From the NCBI GenBank assembly GCA_028285465.1, contig JANQPD010000091.1:1-64000 (forward strand): a stretch of 64,000 nucleotides of DNA. Direction: 5' to 3'. The DNA comes from Owenweeksia sp. (GTDB lineage Bacteria > Bacteroidota > Bacteroidia > Flavobacteriales > Schleiferiaceae). Positions 26,153 through 37,432 of the stretch are shown one piece after another; the first letter of the stretch is position 1, and each line of letters begins with the position of its first letter. The position numbers and the translations under genes are program-made. The notes beneath the pieces are model-generated. The model saw only the letters and a list, made by a program, of their open reading frames with translations. It did no database searches and was not told the origin of the DNA.

Positions 26153-27106
26153 TTAAAACACAGCCGAGGCTATGGCTTTAATGTTATCCACTTTGCCCAT
26201 GCTGTAAAAATGAATAACCGGAACCCCGGCTGCTTTGAGTGCCTTGCTTTGCTCCACTGCCCATTCCACCCCAACCTGGCGTACAGCTTTATTATCTGCA
26301 CAGGCAACTACCTCTTTCACTAAGGCATCCGGTAAGTCTACGTTAAAGCGATGCGGCAGCAGGCTAAGGTGTTTTTTAGTGGCAATAGGTTTAATTCCCG
26401 GGATAACGGGTACCTGTATACCTGCCTCCCTTACTTTTTCTACATAGTCGAAGTAAGCTTGATTATCAAAAAACAACTGTGTTGTAATATACTCCGCCCC
26501 GGCATCTACCTTCTCTTTTAGCTTTTCAATGTCATTGTTGATGCTAGGTGCCTCAAAGTGTTTCTCGGGATATCCCGCCACACCGATGCAGAAATTAGTA
26601 GGCGTAGAGTTCTGCAACTCCTCGTCCAGGTACTTGCCTTCATTCATCCGGCTGATCTGGCTTACCAGGTCTCGCGCATATGCATGCCCGTCTTTTTCAG
26701 GCACAAAGTAAGTCTCGCCTTTCATGCTGTCTCCACGTAGGGCCAGAACGTTTTCAATACCCAGGAAATCCAGGTCTATCAGCGCGTTTTCCGTATCTTC
26801 TTTATTAAACCCGCCACATAAGATATGCGGCACTGCATCTATCTTGTACTTGTTTTGTATTGCGGCACAGATCCCTACCGTTCCTGGACGTTTTTTAATC
26901 GTTTTTTGTTCGAGAAAACCATTGGGCAGCCGCTTGTAAACCACTTCCTCCCGGTGGTAAGTAACGTTTACAAAGGGAGGGTTAAACTCCATTAAAGGGT
27001 CTATGCTGTTGTAAATAGCTGAAATATTCTGCCCCTTTAGAGGAGGTAATATCTCGAAACTAAAGATGGTTTCCTTGGCTTGTTTGATATGCTCTATTAC
27101 TTTCAA
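26153..27106 (-). CDS. metF: 5,10-methylenetetrahydrofolate reductase
   Basis: MetF is an FAD enzyme that reduces 5,10-methylene-THF to 5-methyl-THF, the methyl donor for MetH. The product is 317 residues, normal length. It shows FSFEILPPLKG near residue 16, PFVNVTYHREE, LALRGDSMKGE, FCIGVAGYPEKH near 173, and ITTQLFFDNQAYFDYVEK near 210. It is the last gene of a metH1-metH2-metF operon, 75 bp after metH2, so it should share the upstream SAM-I riboswitch control if transcripts read through. Confidence 0.95.
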   Translation of the reverse strand: MKVIEHIKQAKETIFSFEILPPLKGQNISAIYNSIDPLMEFNPPFVNVTYHREEVVYKRLPNGFLEQKTIKKRPGTVGICAAIQNKYKIDAVPHILCGGFNKEDTENALIDLDFLGIENVLALRGDSMKGETYFVPEKDGHAYARDLVSQISRMNEGKYLDEELQNSTPTNFCIGVAGYPEKHFEAPSINNDIEKLKEKVDAGAEYITTQLFFDNQAYFDYVEKVREAGIQVPVIPGIKPIATKKHLSLLPHRFNVDLPDALVKEVVACADNKAVRQVGVEWAVEQSKALKAAGVPVIHFYSMGKVDNIKAIASAVF

Positions 27107-27181: not shown

Positions 27182-29839
27182 TTATGCTTCATCAACCAGG
27201 TTTGGCCGTAACCATTTCTCTGCTTCCTGTACTGAAATTCCCTTGCGGTGCGCATAGTCTTCCAGCTGATCCCGCCCGATCTTTCCCAACCCAAAATACT
27301 TGGCCTGCGGATGCCCGAAGTAATACCCGCTCACCGAGGCGGCCGGATACATCGCCAGACTTTCGGTAAGATGCATCCCCAGGCTATTTGCATCCAGCAC
27401 GTTGAAAATGGTTTGCTTTTCCAGGTGGTCCGGGCAGGCCGGATAGCCTGGAGCAGGACGTATACCCCTGTATTTTTCTTTGATCAACGCTTCGTTTTCA
27501 AGTGCTTCATCAGCCGCGTAGCCCCAGTATTCCTTGCGTATTCTTTCGTGCAACCATTCAGCGGCCGCCTCAGCCAGGCGGTCTGCCAAAGCTTTTACCA
27601 TTATGGACCGGTAGTCATCATGCTCTTTTTCGTATTGCTCTACCAGTTGCTCTATACCCAGGCCGGCCGTAACGGCAAAGCAGCCTACATAATCTTTACA
27701 ATCGCTATCTGCAGAAGCTATAAAATCACTCAATGCCAGGTTAGGTGCACCTTTGGCCTTTTTACTTTGCTGGCGCAAGGTTCTGAATCTTTCCTCTTTA
27801 CCCGAGGGAGGGTAAAAACGGATGTCATCGCCCTCTGCCTGCGCTTCAAAAAGGCCAAAAGCCCCTTTAGCCTGTAATTGCTTCTTTAAAACGATCTCGT
27901 CCAGCATGCTTTGTGCATCTGTGTAGAGTGCCCTCGCTTCCTCTCCGACCACCGCATCTTCCAAAATACCGGGGAACTTGCCATGCAGCTCCCAGGTCAT
28001 AAAAAAAGGAGTCCAGTCTATATACCTTCGTAAGGTGGAGAGGTCAATTTCTTCAAATACCTTTATTCCCAGGAAATGGGGTGTATAGGTTGCTTTTGCA
28101 TCAAACTCAAACTGCCCTTTATTGGCCCGTGCCTGCTCCAGGCTCAGGTATTGCTTCGTTTGTCCCCGGTTCAAATAGCCCTCCCGCAGCTTGGTATACT
28201 CCTCGGCAAGTTTTGTTTTGAACGCCCCGTGGTTGGCCCTGGAAGACAAGGTTTGTGCTACGGGGACGCTGCGGCTTGCATCGTTTACATGTACGGCTAT
28301 GCCCGAATACTCGGGGTAAATCTTTACGGCTGTATGTGCCCGCGAGGTGGTAGCGCCTCCTATCATCAGTGGTGTTTTCATGGCGCGCCTTTCCATTTCG
28401 CGTGCTACATATATCATCTCATCCAAAGAAGGAGTAATAAGGCCACTTAAGCCAATTACATCCACCTGCTCCTCCTCTGCTTTGGCCAGTATTTTTTCGA
28501 GGGGCACCATTACACCAAGGTCTACAATATCAAAATTATTACAGGCCAATACCACACTCACTATATTCTTACCTATGTCGTGTACATCACCTTTCACCGT
28601 GGCCATCAATATCTTGCCCTTCTTTTGCTGATCACTGGCATTGGCTTTCTCCGCTTCCATAAACGGTTCCAGGTAAGCCACTGCCTTTTTCATTACACGG
28701 GCCGATTTTACCACCTGGGGCAAAAACATTTTACCGGAGCCAAAAAGATCTCCTACCACGTTCATCCCATCCATTAAGGGGCCTTCAATTACTTCCAGGG
28801 TTTTATTTGCCTGTTGGCGGGCCGCTTCTACATCTTCCACTATGAAATCCGTGATTCCCTTTATCAAGGCATGTTCTATGCGCTTTTTTACCGGAAGCTC
28901 CCGCCACGTATTGTCTTTAAGGATGCTTTTCGTTTCTCCTTTAAAGCGTTCGGCAAAATCAAGCAAACGTTCCGTAGCCTCTTCCCTCCTATCCAGCAAC
29001 ACATCCTCCACTCTTTCCAAAAGGTCTTTCGGGACCTCTTCATACACCTCCAGCATACTTGGGTTCACAATGCCCATATCCATACCATGCTGAATGCCAT
29101 GGTATAAGAATGCCGCGTGCATGGCTTCCCGCACCGCCTGGTTTCCGCGAAAACTAAAAGACACATTGCTTACTCCACCACTCACTTTAGCCCCGGGCAG
29201 GTGTTCTTTGATCCATTGTGTGGCCCGGAAAAAATCCAGTACATTGCTGCGGTGTTCTTCAATGCCAGTGGCCACAGGGAAGATATTGGGATCAAAAATG
29301 ATGTCCTCTTTCGGAAAATGCACTTTTCCCACCAGCAAGTCGTAAGAACGCTTACAGATTTCTATACGTCTCTCGTAGGTATCGGCCTGTCCCCGTTCAT
29401 CAAAAGCCATTACAATTACAGCAGCCCCGTAACGCTTTACTAGCTTTGCCTGGTTGAGAAACTCCGCTTCCCCACCCTTTAAGCTAATGGAGTTGACCAC
29501 CGGTTTCCCTTGCACACACTTCAGCCCTGCCTCTATGATCTCCCATTTTGAAGAATCGATCATAATGGGTACGCGGCTGATGTCGGGTTCGGCTGCCAGC
29601 AGATGTAGGAATTTCACCATGGCCGCTTTGCCGTCCAGCATGCCTTCGTCCATATTTACATCGATGATCTGGGCTCCCCCCTCCACCTGCTCACGCGCTA
29701 CCTCCAGGGCAGCGTCAAAGTCTCCTTCTTTTATCAAGCGAAGAAACTTCCTGGACCCCGTAACATTGGTGCGCTCACCGATGTTTACGAAATTACTGGC
29801 AGGGCTGATCTTTAAAGGCTCAAGGCCTGATAATTTCAT
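27182..29839 (-). CDS. metH: Methionine synthase, C-terminal part (folate, cobalamin and activation domains)
   Basis: This cobalamin-dependent enzyme part carries the 5-methyl-THF-binding (pterin) domain ([15 protein letters not shown] near residue 23), the B12 cap, the B12-binding domain ([13 protein letters not shown], with His as lower cobalt ligand, near 430), and the SAM-binding reactivation domain ([14 protein letters not shown] near 795; [13 protein letters not shown]). It has 885 residues from the Met at 29839. An upstream in-frame Met at 29887 would overlap the previous gene and adds no family sequence. The homocysteine domain is missing here and is encoded by the preceding gene, 10 bp upstream. 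Together they make one MetH; this split is common in Bacteroidota. Confidence 0.95.
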
Positions 29840-29849
29840 GTTTGTGTTT

Positions 29850-30863
29850 TTAATCGACAACCAATTGCCGGTTTTTTCTTGGGCCATACGCCTTAGCCAA
29901 TTCAGCCATAGCCTGAATATGTGCGGGTGTAGTACCGCAACAACCCCCGATGATGTTTACTATGCCAAGTTCCAGGTATTCCTTCATAAGACCGGCCATT
30001 ACTTCCGGGGTTTGGTCGTACGTGCCAAAAGCGTTGGGCAGGCCCGCATTGGGATGCACCGAAACATTAAACCTGGACTCCCGGTCCAGTACCTGTACGT
30101 ATGGCCTCAACTGGTCCGCTCCCAATGCACAGTTAAAGCCCACTGAAAATAATGGGACGTGAGAGATACTGGTAAGAAAAGCTTCGGCCGTCTGGCCAGA
30201 AAGGGTACGTCCACTGGCATCGGTTATGGTACCCGATACCATGATTGGAATTTCCTTACCGAGGTCATCAAAAAGCTCTGTAATGGCAAAAAGAGCCGCT
30301 TTGGCATTGAGGGTGTCAAAAACGGTTTCTACCAAAAGGCCATCTACTCCTCCCTTGATCAGGGCGCTCGCCTGCTCGTAGTAATTCACTTTTAACGTAT
30401 CAAAATCTATGGCCCTAAAACCCGGGTTGTTCACATCAGGAGATAAACTTGCCGTTTTGTTGGTGGGGCCCATAGACCCGATCACGTAACGTGGTTTACC
30501 TGGCGTTGCCGCTGTAAAGGCATCGGCCACCTCCCGCGCTATTTTCGCAGACTGTTCATTGAGTTCCGGCACCAGGTCTTCCATATGGTAATCGGCCATA
30601 GAAATACGCGTTCCGTTAAACGTATTGGTCTCTACGATATCGGCCCCTGCCTCAAAATACCTGCTGTGTATTTCTTTTATGATATGGGGTTGCGTAAGGG
30701 AAAGCAGGTCATTGTTCCCTTTGAGATCGTACGGGAAATCCTTAAATCTTTCGCCCCGGTAATCTGTTTCCGTCAGTTTGTGTTCCTGGATCATGGTACC
30801 CATGGCCCCGTCCAGGATCAGTATACGCTCTTTGGCCGCATCGGGCAAGCTTTGTTTTGTCAT
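29850..30863 (-). CDS. Methionine synthase, homocysteine-binding (N-terminal) part
   Basis: This 337-residue homocysteine S-methyltransferase domain corresponds to the first module of full MetH. It has [13 protein letters not shown] near residue 15 and zinc ligands in [12 protein letters not shown] near 240 and [14 protein letters not shown] near 307. It works with the folate/B12 part encoded 10 bp downstream to make methionine from homocysteine. Its 5' leader is a SAM-I riboswitch. The ATG lies within a potential hairpin (see regulatory entry). Confidence 0.95.
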
Positions 30864-30924: not shown

Positions 30925-31034
30925 ACGCCTCTCATCTTTCCACGCCTTGCGTGGTGGGAAGTAGCACCCGGCTAGCCCGGGTTGCTAAGATGTCATAGGG
31001 CCCAAACCCTCGATCTTTCTTGATAAGTCGAGGC
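30925..31034 (-). ncRNA. SAM-I (S-box) riboswitch
   Basis: Read on the minus strand, the leader has CUUAUCAAGA opening P1 (31027 downward), then P2 with GAGGG and GGGCCCUAUGAC, then AGCAACC, P3 (CCCGG/CCGGGU), GGUGCUA-UUCC, P4 (CCACGC-AAG-GCGUGG) and AAAGAUGAG closing P1 (30936-30931 pairs with the 5' CUUAUC). The order and conserved elements are those of the SAM-I family, which binds S-adenosylmethionine and turns off methionine genes. It sits directly upstream of metH1. Confidence 0.95.
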
Positions 31035-33709: not shown

Positions 33710-34984
33710 ATGAAATACGCCACGGCTCGCCAGGCCCTTTCCTCCATAAAATCAAATACCAACCTGTTTATTCACAGTGCTGCCGCAGCGCCCAGAGCGC
33801 TTGTAGAAGGTTTGGTAGAACGGGCAGATGAATTGAGGGAGGTAAACATCTATCAATTACACACGGAAGGTCCTGCTCCCTATACCGAAGCCCAATATGC
33901 CGCATCTTTCACGGTACATGCGCTCTTTATCGGTAAGAACTGCCGTAAAGCGGTAAACGAGGGGCGGGCACGTTTTGTGCCCTGTTTTTTAAGTGAAGTC
34001 CCGATTATGTTCCGCGAGGGGGTTATCCGCATTGATACCGTACTGATCCAGGTTTCTCCACCAGACAAGCATGGTTTCTGCAGCCTGGGGGTATCGGTCG
34101 AGGCTACACGCGCCGCCATAGAAGTTGCCGACACTGTAATTGCCCAGGTAAACCCTCAAATGCCCCGTACACACGGGGATAGCTTCATTCACCTGAATGA
34201 GATCGATGCCTATGTAGAACTGGATACTCCCCTGCCGGAGCACATACCCGCTCCCCTGGGAGAAGTGGAACGTAAAATAGGCGCGCATATAGCAGGTATT
34301 ATCGAAGATGGCGCTACGCTGCAAATGGGCATCGGTAGCATTCCGGATGCCGTATTGGCCTGCCTGGATAACCACAAAGACCTGGGGATACACACGGAGA
34401 TGTTCTCTGACGGGGTTATTCCGCTGGTGGAAAAAGGCGTTATTACAAATGCACAAAAAAAGATCCACCCGGGCTACCTGGTTTCGGGTTTTCTGATCGG
34501 CAGCCGCAAACTATACGACTTTGTAGATGACAACCCCATGGTACGGCTGCTGGATATACAGTACGTAAACGATACAAAAGTGATCCGCAAACTGGAAAAA
34601 ATGACGTCTATAAACAGTGCTATTGAGGTAGACATTACCGGCCAGGTGAGTGCGGATTCTATTGGCACCCGGATGTACTCCGGAGTAGGCGGTCAAATGG
34701 ATTTTATACGGGGGGCTTCCTTTTCAAAAGGAGGTAAGCCCATTATTGCCTTACCTTCGGTTACTAAAGACGGGGCTTCTAAGATCAGTGCTATGTTGAA
34801 ACCCGGTGCCGGTGTAGTTACCACCCGTGCACATGTACAGTATGTGGCTACGGAATACGGCATTGTGAACCTTTACGGCAAAAGCCTTACCGAACGCGCC
34901 AAGGCCATGATCAGCATTGCGCACCCAAAACACCGGGAGGCCCTGGAAGAAGCAGCGTACCAGCGCTTTGGAAGTTTAGCTTAA
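33710..34984 (+). CDS. Acetyl-CoA hydrolase/4-hydroxybutyrate CoA-transferase family protein
   Basis: This 424-residue class I CoA-transferase moves CoA between acetyl-CoA and carboxylic acids. The catalytic Glu lies in LGIHTEMFSDGV near residue 233. The glycine-rich stretch ATLQMGIGSIPDAVLA precedes it, and YSGVGGQMDFIRGAS, with FSKGGKPIIALPS, follows near 325. Length fits 4-hydroxybutyrate CoA-transferase relatives; the acceptor acid cannot be read from sequence. It is a single gene whose stop overlaps the stop of the convergent lipoprotein gene (TTAA). Confidence 0.92.
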   Translation: MKYATARQALSSIKSNTNLFIHSAAAAPRALVEGLVERADELREVNIYQLHTEGPAPYTEAQYAASFTVHALFIGKNCRKAVNEGRARFVPCFLSEVPIMFREGVIRIDTVLIQVSPPDKHGFCSLGVSVEATRAAIEVADTVIAQVNPQMPRTHGDSFIHLNEIDAYVELDTPLPEHIPAPLGEVERKIGAHIAGIIEDGATLQMGIGSIPDAVLACLDNHKDLGIHTEMFSDGVIPLVEKGVITNAQKKIHPGYLVSGFLIGSRKLYDFVDDNPMVRLLDIQYVNDTKVIRKLEKMTSINSAIEVDITGQVSADSIGTRMYSGVGGQMDFIRGASFSKGGKPIIALPSVTKDGASKISAMLKPGAGVVTTRAHVQYVATEYGIVNLYGKSLTERAKAMISIAHPKHREALEEAAYQRFGSLA

Positions 34985-35982
34985 CGTTTTTCTGGCAATA
35001 CCACCCATTGAGGAGGTAGATCTGAACGGTGTTTGTAGTGGTATACATAACGTATGGTCTCTTTGAGCCCGGTCCGTACCCAAAGTTGTTCCCGCACGGC
35101 ATTGCCTAAGTGTACATTGTAGATCGTATCAACATGACCATTCTCCTGAAAAAGTGTGGGGTAAGGCCTTCCACCTGTGAGGTGTACCCTTAATTCTGCA
35201 TGACGGTTCGCAATGAGGTCCTTGAAGCGATAATACCAACCTGACCCTGCGTTTTGCCTGGCTTTGTAAGACAGGTGCTGAAAATCAGATTGCAATATCC
35301 TGTTTGGCAGGGGAACTCCGTTTCGGTGCTTCACCCGCCAATGGTAGCCTTTTTGATCGAGGAAAAACCAGGGTTGGATCACCTTTGCTTCCTCAAAAAG
35401 TACGCTATTTCCGGTGAGGTCTTTAATTTGCCCCATCCAGTCGAAAAAAACAACAGCCCGCTCCATTGCCGTATCTTCCCGTATCCTCTCTATTTCTACA
35501 CTATCCAGGTAGTCTCCTTCTTGTTCGCAAATGTTGTGTACATACAAAATGCCCGCATAGCTCAGTTCATCTAGCCGGGTGGTTTCGGTATAGGAATAGG
35601 TCTCAGAAGGCTCCACTTCCACATCGGCTCCCATCAACAACAAAGCGAGACCAAAAACATCAGGACCTGTCGTGCCTGTTTTTTCTTCCGTTTTATAATA
35701 CGCCTGATGATCGAGTAATATGACTCCGTCAAAGCCGGAAGCAAAGGCCTCGGCCTGCAGGTGCTTCTCAATGAAAGAGGGCGCGACATCCGTAAGACGT
35801 AAATGATATTCCCCTTGCTTCACGTAAGGCAGAACCGGGTTTTGCCCTATGTAAAATACATCCGGGCTTAAAGACGTTGGATTAGTGCGTGTCATTCTCC
35901 GGGCTTCCATGAGGTCCATTTGATAGCTGCCGCACGAGGCAAAAAACAAAAAAACAAAATACAGGCAGGTCTTCTTCAACAT
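34981..35982 (-). CDS. Lipoprotein of unknown function
   Basis: The protein has 333 residues from the Met that opens MLKKTCLYFVFLFFASC (lipid Cys at 17). The frame is open a further 39 codons, but these would run into the metK promoter and leader and carry no signal peptide. The mature part has mixed alpha/beta character (GEYHLRLTDVAPSFIEKHLQ; DGVILLDHQAYYKTEEK). I recognise no family; the pattern recalls Bacteroidota outer-membrane lipoproteins with a DUF6340-like layout, but this is weak. It is divergent from metK and convergent with the CoA-transferase. Confidence 0.75.
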   Translation of the reverse strand: MLKKTCLYFVFLFFASCGSYQMDLMEARRMTRTNPTSLSPDVFYIGQNPVLPYVKQGEYHLRLTDVAPSFIEKHLQAEAFASGFDGVILLDHQAYYKTEEKTGTTGPDVFGLALLLMGADVEVEPSETYSYTETTRLDELSYAGILYVHNICEQEGDYLDSVEIERIREDTAMERAVVFFDWMGQIKDLTGNSVLFEEAKVIQPWFFLDQKGYHWRVKHRNGVPLPNRILQSDFQHLSYKARQNAGSGWYYRFKDLIANRHAELRVHLTGGRPYPTLFQENGHVDTIYNVHLGNAVREQLWVRTGLKETIRYVYHYKHRSDLPPQWVVLPEKR

Positions 35983-36053
35983 ATAGAAACTGGTTTCACC
36001 ATCTTTAACTAAAACGATGCCAATAAAGCCGGAGTTCTTTTCACTTCTTTTAA

Positions 36054-36061
36054 TACATTTG
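36054..36061 (+). promoter_or_regulatory. -7 box of metK
   Basis: A perfect TACATTTG. The predicted transcription start (about 36066-36068) coincides with the first helix of the SAM-II-like element, giving a leader of about 112 nt before the metK ATG. Confidence 0.6.
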
Positions 36062-36067
36062 CCCCCC

Positions 36068-36118
36068 GGTGGAAAAATTTGTTCTGATTGCAACCACACT
36101 AAAAAATGCTAAAGCAGT
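36068..36118 (+). ncRNA. Candidate SAM-II riboswitch in the metK leader
   Basis: The segment can fold as the H-type pseudoknot of SAM-II. P1 is GUGG (36069-36072) with CCAC (36094-36097). P2b is CUG (36084-36086) with CAG (36115-36117). P2a is AUU (36087-36089) with AAU (36105-36107). Conserved-looking segments are in the right order: AUUUG and UUGCAACCAC, then CUAAA, then GCUAAAG (36108-36114), comparable to what I recall of the Agrobacterium metA element. It sits between a promoter and metK. P1 and P2 are short, so this needs a covariance search. Confidence 0.55.
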
Positions 36119-36146
36119 GCATTTTTAGCTTTTTGCAATCGGTTTT
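36086..36146 (+). promoter_or_regulatory. Alternative long hairpin with T-run in the metK leader
   Basis: GATTGCAA (36086-36093) pairs perfectly with TTGCAATC (36133-36140). Inside it CTAAAAAATGC (36099-36109) pairs with GCATTTTTAG (36119-36128) apart from one extra A. GGTTTTTT follows. It uses the same bases as the SAM-II-like pseudoknot, so the two folds exclude each other. It resembles a terminator or an anti-aptamer structure. Confidence 0.55.
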
Positions 36147-36178
36147 TTCTCCGTTTTAATACAAAAGATTAAAAGCAA

Positions 36179-37432
36179 ATGGCGTATTTATTTACTTCCG
36201 AATCTGTTTCCGAAGGACATCCCGATAAAATTTCCGATCAAATCTCCGATGCGATCATAGACCACTTCCTGGCGCTTGACCCGGATTCTAAAGTGGCGTG
36301 TGAAACCCTGGTAACCACCGGGCAGGTTGTGCTGGCGGGCGAAATAAAATCCAATGCCTATGTAGATGTACAGAGTGTGGCCCGGGAGGTGATCAAACGC
36401 ATTGGATACACCAAAGGCGAATACATGTTCAGTGCCGACAGTTGCGGTGTATTGTCGGCCCTGCACGAGCAAAGCCCCGATATCAACCAGGGGGTGGACC
36501 GGGGCACTGCTGAAGAGCAAGGTGCAGGAGACCAGGGTATGATGTTCGGTTATGCAACCAATGAAACCGACAACTACATGCCGCTGGCGCTTGACCTGAG
36601 CCACAGCATATTGATCGAGCTGGCTAAGCTTCGCAAAGAAAACCAGGAGATCACTTATTTGCGCCCGGATGCCAAGGCACAGGTTACCATCGAGTATTCG
36701 GATGACAACCAGCCTCAAAAGATCACCACCATTGTGATTTCAACGCAGCACGATGAATTCGCAGACGAGGCTACTATGCTAAAGAAGATCAAAGAGGATC
36801 TCATCCAGATTTTGATCCCACGGGTAAAAGCTTCTTTAAAACCGGAATTACAGGCTTTGTTTACCGATGATATTACCTATCATATCAATCCTACCGGGAA
36901 ATTTGTAATTGGCGGCCCGCACGGAGACGCAGGCCTTACAGGTAGAAAGATCATCGTGGATACCTATGGGGGTAAGGGAGCCCATGGAGGAGGTGCCTTT
37001 TCCGGAAAAGACCCAAGCAAAGTAGATCGTTCTGCGGCTTATGCCACGCGCCACATGGCCAAAAACATGGTAGCTGCAGGCCTGGCCGATCAAATCCTGG
37101 TACAGGTTTCTTACGCCATAGGTGTGGTAGAACCTACGGGTATTTTTGTAGATACGTACGGCACTTCAAAGGTGAATATGACCGATGGAGAAATTGCGAA
37201 AAAGGCCGCCGAGCTCTTTGATATGCGCCCGGGGATTATCGAGCAACGCCTGAAGCTGCGTAACCCGATGTATGCAGAAACAGCGGCCTACGGCCATATG
37301 GGCCGGGAAACCAAAACCGTAGATAAAGTGTTTTTTGATGGCAATGGAAAAGAAATACGCAAAGCGGTAGAACTTTTTACCTGGGAGAAACTGGATCACG
37401 TAGAAGAAGTAAAAAAAGCCTTCGGTTTGTAG
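36179..37432 (+). CDS. metK: S-adenosylmethionine synthetase
   Basis: MetK makes S-adenosylmethionine from methionine and ATP. The product is 417 residues. It carries [20 protein letters not shown] at residues 5-24, [14 protein letters not shown] near 120, and the P-loop-like [19 protein letters not shown] near 275. A 25-30-residue insertion around 150-180 relative to E. coli MetK is usual in Bacteroidota. It completes the methionine cycle with the metH/metF operon 5 kb away. Its structured leader suggests SAM feedback. Confidence 0.97.

Follow-up and report, generated by a model that had tools for sequence, protein, structure and literature searches.

A predicted SAM-II riboswitch of the RF01726 subtype before metK, with a SAM-I riboswitch before metH-metF, in Owenweeksia sp.

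SAM-II riboswitches have been known from Bacteroidetes since Corbino et al. 2005 listed one in Bacteroides thetaiotaomicron (PMC1273637), and Weinberg et al. 2010 listed RF01726 as 'SAM-II long loops, Bacteroidetes, marine' (PMC2864571). The metK leader studied here, located in a 64-kb stretch of DNA (hereafter the window), resembles RF01726 in sequence and structure above the cut-off, in its Bacteroidetes host, in its short pseudoknot and in its conserved core. The aptamer itself does not differ, with L3 being short in the window's copy while several relatives carry long inserts in L3 or L1. The metA motif RF00521 (PMC1273637) shares P1, the H-type pseudoknot and the segments AUUUG, UUGCA and GCUAAAG, but it targets metA, metX or metY, often together with a terminator, and the window's leader stays below its cut-off (15.4 of 36 bits). 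In S. meliloti, SAM-II has been documented to control metA at the level of translation (PMC9373788), and control of translation initiation is likewise proposed for the window; however, the S. meliloti switch masks a Shine-Dalgarno sequence, whereas the window's leader has no evident Shine-Dalgarno sequence and would have its start-codon region masked.

Barrick and Breaker 2007 found both SAM-I and SAM-II in Bacteroidetes, with no single species possessing both (PMC2258182), while Sherlock et al. 2022 described SAM-II in series with SAM-V and, in a few cases, with SAM-I/IV (PMC9481103). These tandems resemble our locus in having two SAM-sensing classes per genome but are arranged in series on one transcript, whereas in the window the two classes are on separate transcripts, metH and metK, that point away from each other. 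In the literature searched, which is incomplete and therefore weak evidence of absence, we found no report of SAM-I and SAM-II in one genome beyond this tandem survey, and no description of a divergent metH/SAM-I and SAM-II/metK pair or of a leader-specific anti-aptamer strand.

The aptamer in the metK leader

The metK leader and its gene comprise the following features:
36054-36061, + strand: Bacteroidota-type -7 promoter box TACATTTG, directly before the aptamer (sequence)
36063-36122, + strand: SAM-II long-loop type aptamer RF01726 (55.1 bits, gathering score 44)
36069-36072 with 36094-36097, + strand: P1, GUGG with CCAC (four standard pairs in 36 of 36 sequences)
36077-36080 with 36104-36107, + strand: inner pseudoknot, AUUU with AAAU (98.6% of cells paired)
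36084-36086 with 36115-36117, + strand: outer pseudoknot, CUG with CAG (63.9% of cells paired)
36086-36097, + strand: conserved GAUUGCAACCAC, including the 3' strand of P1 (sequence, alignment)
36108-36114, + strand: conserved GCUAAAG, ligand-binding region of SAM-II (RF01726 match, alignment)
36179-37432, + strand: metK, methionine adenosyltransferase (TIGR01034, 507 bits)

A covariance-model search aligned RF01726 from its first to its last position (1-60) at 36063-36122. This is the single RF01726 match in the whole genome (3.84 Mb) and, with E-values of 8e-8 in the window and 1.2e-9 across the genome, lies far beyond chance. Judged by sequence and predicted structure, the metK leader is a true SAM-II riboswitch of the catalogued RF01726 subtype in its usual place, and SAM is its presumed ligand. 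The initial annotation had read a -7 box, P1, both pseudoknot pairings and segments such as GCUAAAG from the letters alone, all of which are present, and its proposal of SAM-II before metK is borne out by the RF01726 score, helix covariation and conservation in relatives. Its recommended scan with RF00521 (the alphaproteobacterial SAM-II family, SAM_alpha) remained under the cut-off, which rules that family out, and the positive result came from RF01726 instead; the divergent or new class that it had also considered is ruled out by above-cut-off membership in RF01726 (PMC2864571). At an E threshold of 10, the covariance-model hits in 35900-36300 included no SAM-V match.

The short helices could hint at a chance match or a non-functional relic, an explanation that is already refuted statistically by the genome-wide E-value and left with next to no probability by the conservation of promoter, aptamer and gene as a set and the covariation of P1. 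Variants of known aptamers can switch ligand and SAM binding is presumed here, so an aptamer structurally related to SAM-II but responsive to another ligand (e.g. SAH), or a new class, also has to be weighed; yet the score exceeds the curated RF01726 cut-off, the core TTGCAACC..GCTAAAG is kept in the aligned rows and the gene is metK, and we consider this highly improbable. If the aptamer binds SAM, SAM-selective modulation would be expected at UUGCAACC and GCUAAAG.

Helix conservation was evaluated in an alignment of 36 leaders and in 125 unique metK leaders containing the aptamer core. The SAM-II structure was 87.5% paired in the 36 leaders compared to 82.8% after shuffling and 43-60% when slid along the alignment, and the percentage paired, the number of cells with two-sided changes and the covariation score exceeded those of every shuffled and slid version; pair counts and pair-type counts showed no excess over shuffles in the same alignment. 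The covariation that the initial annotation had asked for in all three helices is clear for P1, paired throughout, where the second pair swaps between U-A (22 leaders) and A-U (14) without any break, and where 124 of the 125 leaders keep pairing (65 U-A, 59 A-U, one exception). The inner pseudoknot helix is almost always paired yet nearly invariant in the 36 leaders. The outer one has two-sided changes at all four columns there, at the lowest proportion of paired cells of the three helices, and a signal among the 125 that is weak but above permutation. Leaders were gathered with a pattern fixing TTGC[AG]ACC[AT]C and GCTAA, so the invariance of TTGCAACC and GCTAA is partly by construction; for the 5' partner in the covarying P1 pair, the pattern allowed A, C or T. 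An outward extension of P1 by one or two pairs was rejected, as the outer columns pair inconsistently. Hairpin-like inserts of ~20-50 nt are located in L3 or L1 of the aptamer in the relatives L017 (1501-1607), L018, L019, L020 and L021.

The standard target of RF01726 here is metK: the motif was present in 22 of 149 genomes of a class-wide sample, and metK followed it in every one of the 21 readable loci, among them the one in the window. Together with the description of RF01726 from Bacteroidetes in 2010, this removes the novelty that the initial annotation had attached to SAM-II before metK in Bacteroidota. Of 296 genomes sampled from the window's order, 202 contained RF01726, spread over 70 of 90 genera, and a TAnnTTTG box lies at most 45 nt upstream of P1 (mostly 5-17 nt) in 115 of the 125 unique leaders. 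The aptamer by itself is ordinary, and the metK leader should be annotated as RF01726.

Several observations accompany these loci. In three strongly reduced genomes of ~0.6 Mb from the same order (G182, G286, G301), SAM-II is retained only as a weak match (E 5e-4 to 8e-4), which may represent a riboswitch in decay. A Flavo-1 RNA (RF01705, 70.5 bits) follows directly behind metK in Flavobacterium hibisci (L056, 9381-9459). In the window, the longest reading of the ORF at 34981-36099 (- strand, GTG at 36099) crosses the metK promoter and aptamer; a start at an internal ATG near 35981, which would give a lipoprotein-like N terminus, looks more plausible, and 34981-35991 had no NCBIfam match.

Two SAM-sensing classes at metH and metK

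The second riboswitch of the window and its genes are arranged as follows:
30929-31029, - strand: SAM-I (S-box) riboswitch aptamer RF00162 (70.7 bits, threshold 44.4)
29850-30863, - strand: N-terminal part of metH, homocysteine methyltransferase domain (NF007024 / TIGR02082 positions 2-339)
27182-29887, - strand: remaining domains of metH (NF007024, 1508.8 bits, profile 340-1230)
26153-27106, - strand: metF, methylenetetrahydrofolate reductase (TIGR00676, 311.7 bits)

Like RF01726, RF00162 has a single match in the genome, and it is situated upstream of metH1-metH2-metF, 5 kb from the metK leader and on the opposite strand, just as the initial annotation had recognised. MetH is split at 27182-30863 (- strand) into ORFs of 337 and 901 aa that share 38 bases. 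Behind SAM-I in L171 and L175, the N-terminal MetH is similarly short (333-336 aa), whereas the MetH frame of genomes with a close head-to-head arrangement is longer.

The co-occurrence of the two classes is widespread. Covariance-model searches detected both SAM-I and SAM-II in 165 of the 296 genomes of the order, SAM-II only in 37, SAM-I only in 10 and neither in 84. One methionine cycle is therefore read by two unrelated aptamers, as had been suggested for the window, and this holds widely. Distances were taken from coordinates among the matches listed for the order plus a few genomes of the class sample; among these, at least 43 genomes had SAM-I and SAM-II on one contig no more than 20 kb apart, 40 of the 43 head-to-head. 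Among the matches listed, the 22 pairs with less than 300 bp between them all had this orientation; many are separated by 65-71 bp, and the 22 span five families of the order. In all eight close pairs whose SAM-I side was read, the gene behind SAM-I was metH. Both classes near metK were found in Flavobacterium hibisci, Polaribacter sp. Hel1_85 (head-to-head, 229 bp between them), Euzebyella saccharophila and Flagellimonas flava, the latter two not head-to-head.

The window contains the same two genes in the same orientation with 5 kb and four ORFs between them, and is thus best read as an opened-up version of the metH/metK pair. Genomes of family f33 in the class sample (G031, G069, G129) possess SAM-II without SAM-I, which may be why the 2007 survey lacked species with both classes. 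We see even chances for a more general picture, i.e. an order-wide divergent pair of metH (SAM-I) and metK (SAM-II), often less than 100 bp apart, in which a leader-specific anti-aptamer strand would alternate between aptamer and start codon without a Shine-Dalgarno sequence, the window being a version separated by ~5 kb.

A putative translational switch in the metK leader

Two complementary segments of the leader are central to the proposed switch:
36068-36094, + strand: 5' half of the aptamer, complementary to the downstream strand (duplex -19.1 kcal/mol, z -2.6)
36132-36153, + strand: anti-aptamer strand, the putative expression platform (duplex, full-leader fold)

Beyond what the initial annotation had described, folding of the full metK leader gave a single long hairpin (-27.3 kcal/mol, z -2.4) in which these two segments pair with each other, and when the aptamer is removed from the fold, UUUGC (36132-36136) pairs instead with GCAAA (36175-36179), ending on the A of the AUG. 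Complementarity of this kind recurs among relatives: in 119 leaders the downstream stretch paired with the aptamer 5' half at a mean z of -2.29 against dinucleotide shuffles. Restricting the comparison to 63 leaders whose downstream stretches are dissimilar gave a mean z of -2.13, with p <=0.05 reached in 60% and missed in 40%, compared to -0.89 when the aptamer half was swapped for that of another leader and +0.56 for the control against the first 45 nt of the metK coding region. The strand thus appears to be fitted to its own aptamer in each leader, and in our folding models this leader-specific complementarity suggests a translational OFF switch. A local hairpin confined to GCUAAAG was rejected as a general switch (mean z -0.74, p 0.05 in 20%) and is present in some leaders (L135, L213).

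Terminators accompany most proteobacterial SAM-II switches (PMC2258182, PMC1273637), and the window's leader has U-rich stretches at 36130-36134 and 36143-36148, which would be in keeping with transcription attenuation, an intrinsic terminator forming ahead of metK once SAM is bound. However, a terminator scan of the leader found no terminator-like site at 35950-36250. Across the leaders, a median of 27 nt separates the end of the anti-aptamer strand from the start codon, and the T content after the duplex (0.41 compared to 0.39 background) is not enriched and no T-run follows. Moreover, the U-run at 36143-36148 is buried in the long hairpin, and a hairpin involving it competes with the aptamer, which would give attenuation the wrong sign. 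We therefore regard attenuation as unlikely.

As ViennaRNA folds without pseudoknots, folding with the aptamer excluded served to mimic the SAM-bound form. In the 63 leaders, the unpaired fraction of the start region (-12..+3) decreased from 0.526 in the free fold to 0.418 upon aptamer removal, whereas with shuffled downstream strands it changed only from 0.505 to 0.489 (difference p 6e-5, n=63). The window's own start region went from 0.41 to 0.20. This effect on accessibility is modest (~0.1 on average) and absent from some leaders. Since the long hairpin excludes the aptamer, SAM must oppose the hairpin, and if the hairpin were repressive, SAM would relieve it and switch metK on; but positive feedback on a SAM synthetase would be unusual and the hairpin form leaves the start region more accessible on average, making an ON switch very unlikely.

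A translational OFF switch is favoured by the complementarity to the leader's own aptamer, the lack of a T-run or terminator and the closing of the start region on aptamer removal. With effect sizes being modest and the fold calculated without pseudoknots, the translational mode is a best guess, and the OFF sign, i.e. SAM lowering MetK, would also follow the usual logic of SAM synthetase control. According to this model, the aptamer would begin at or just after the metK transcription start. At low SAM, the anti-aptamer strand would occupy the aptamer 5' half in the long hairpin, leaving the start-codon region relatively open so that MetK is made. Upon SAM binding, the aptamer would close into its P1 and pseudoknot form and release the downstream strand, whose UUUGC would then pair with GCAAA, and translation would drop, resulting in an OFF switch on SAM synthetase. 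The SAM-I switch would control metH-metF in the opposite direction, with one metabolite acting through two unrelated RNA folds on two steps of one pathway. Taken as a whole, an RF01726 SAM-II translational OFF switch of metK next to SAM-I/metH-metF is the explanation we hold to be probable.

The interest of this locus rests on the paired arrangement and the putative expression platform rather than on the aptamer. The routine presence of SAM-I and SAM-II in one genome, often in one intergenic region, updates the 2007 statement that no species has both. It also makes for a natural comparison, within one cell, of two SAM sensors, one on the making of methionine and the other on its conversion to SAM. 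If true, masking of the start codon would supply riboswitches with a concrete expression platform in bacteria not dependent on Shine-Dalgarno sequences.
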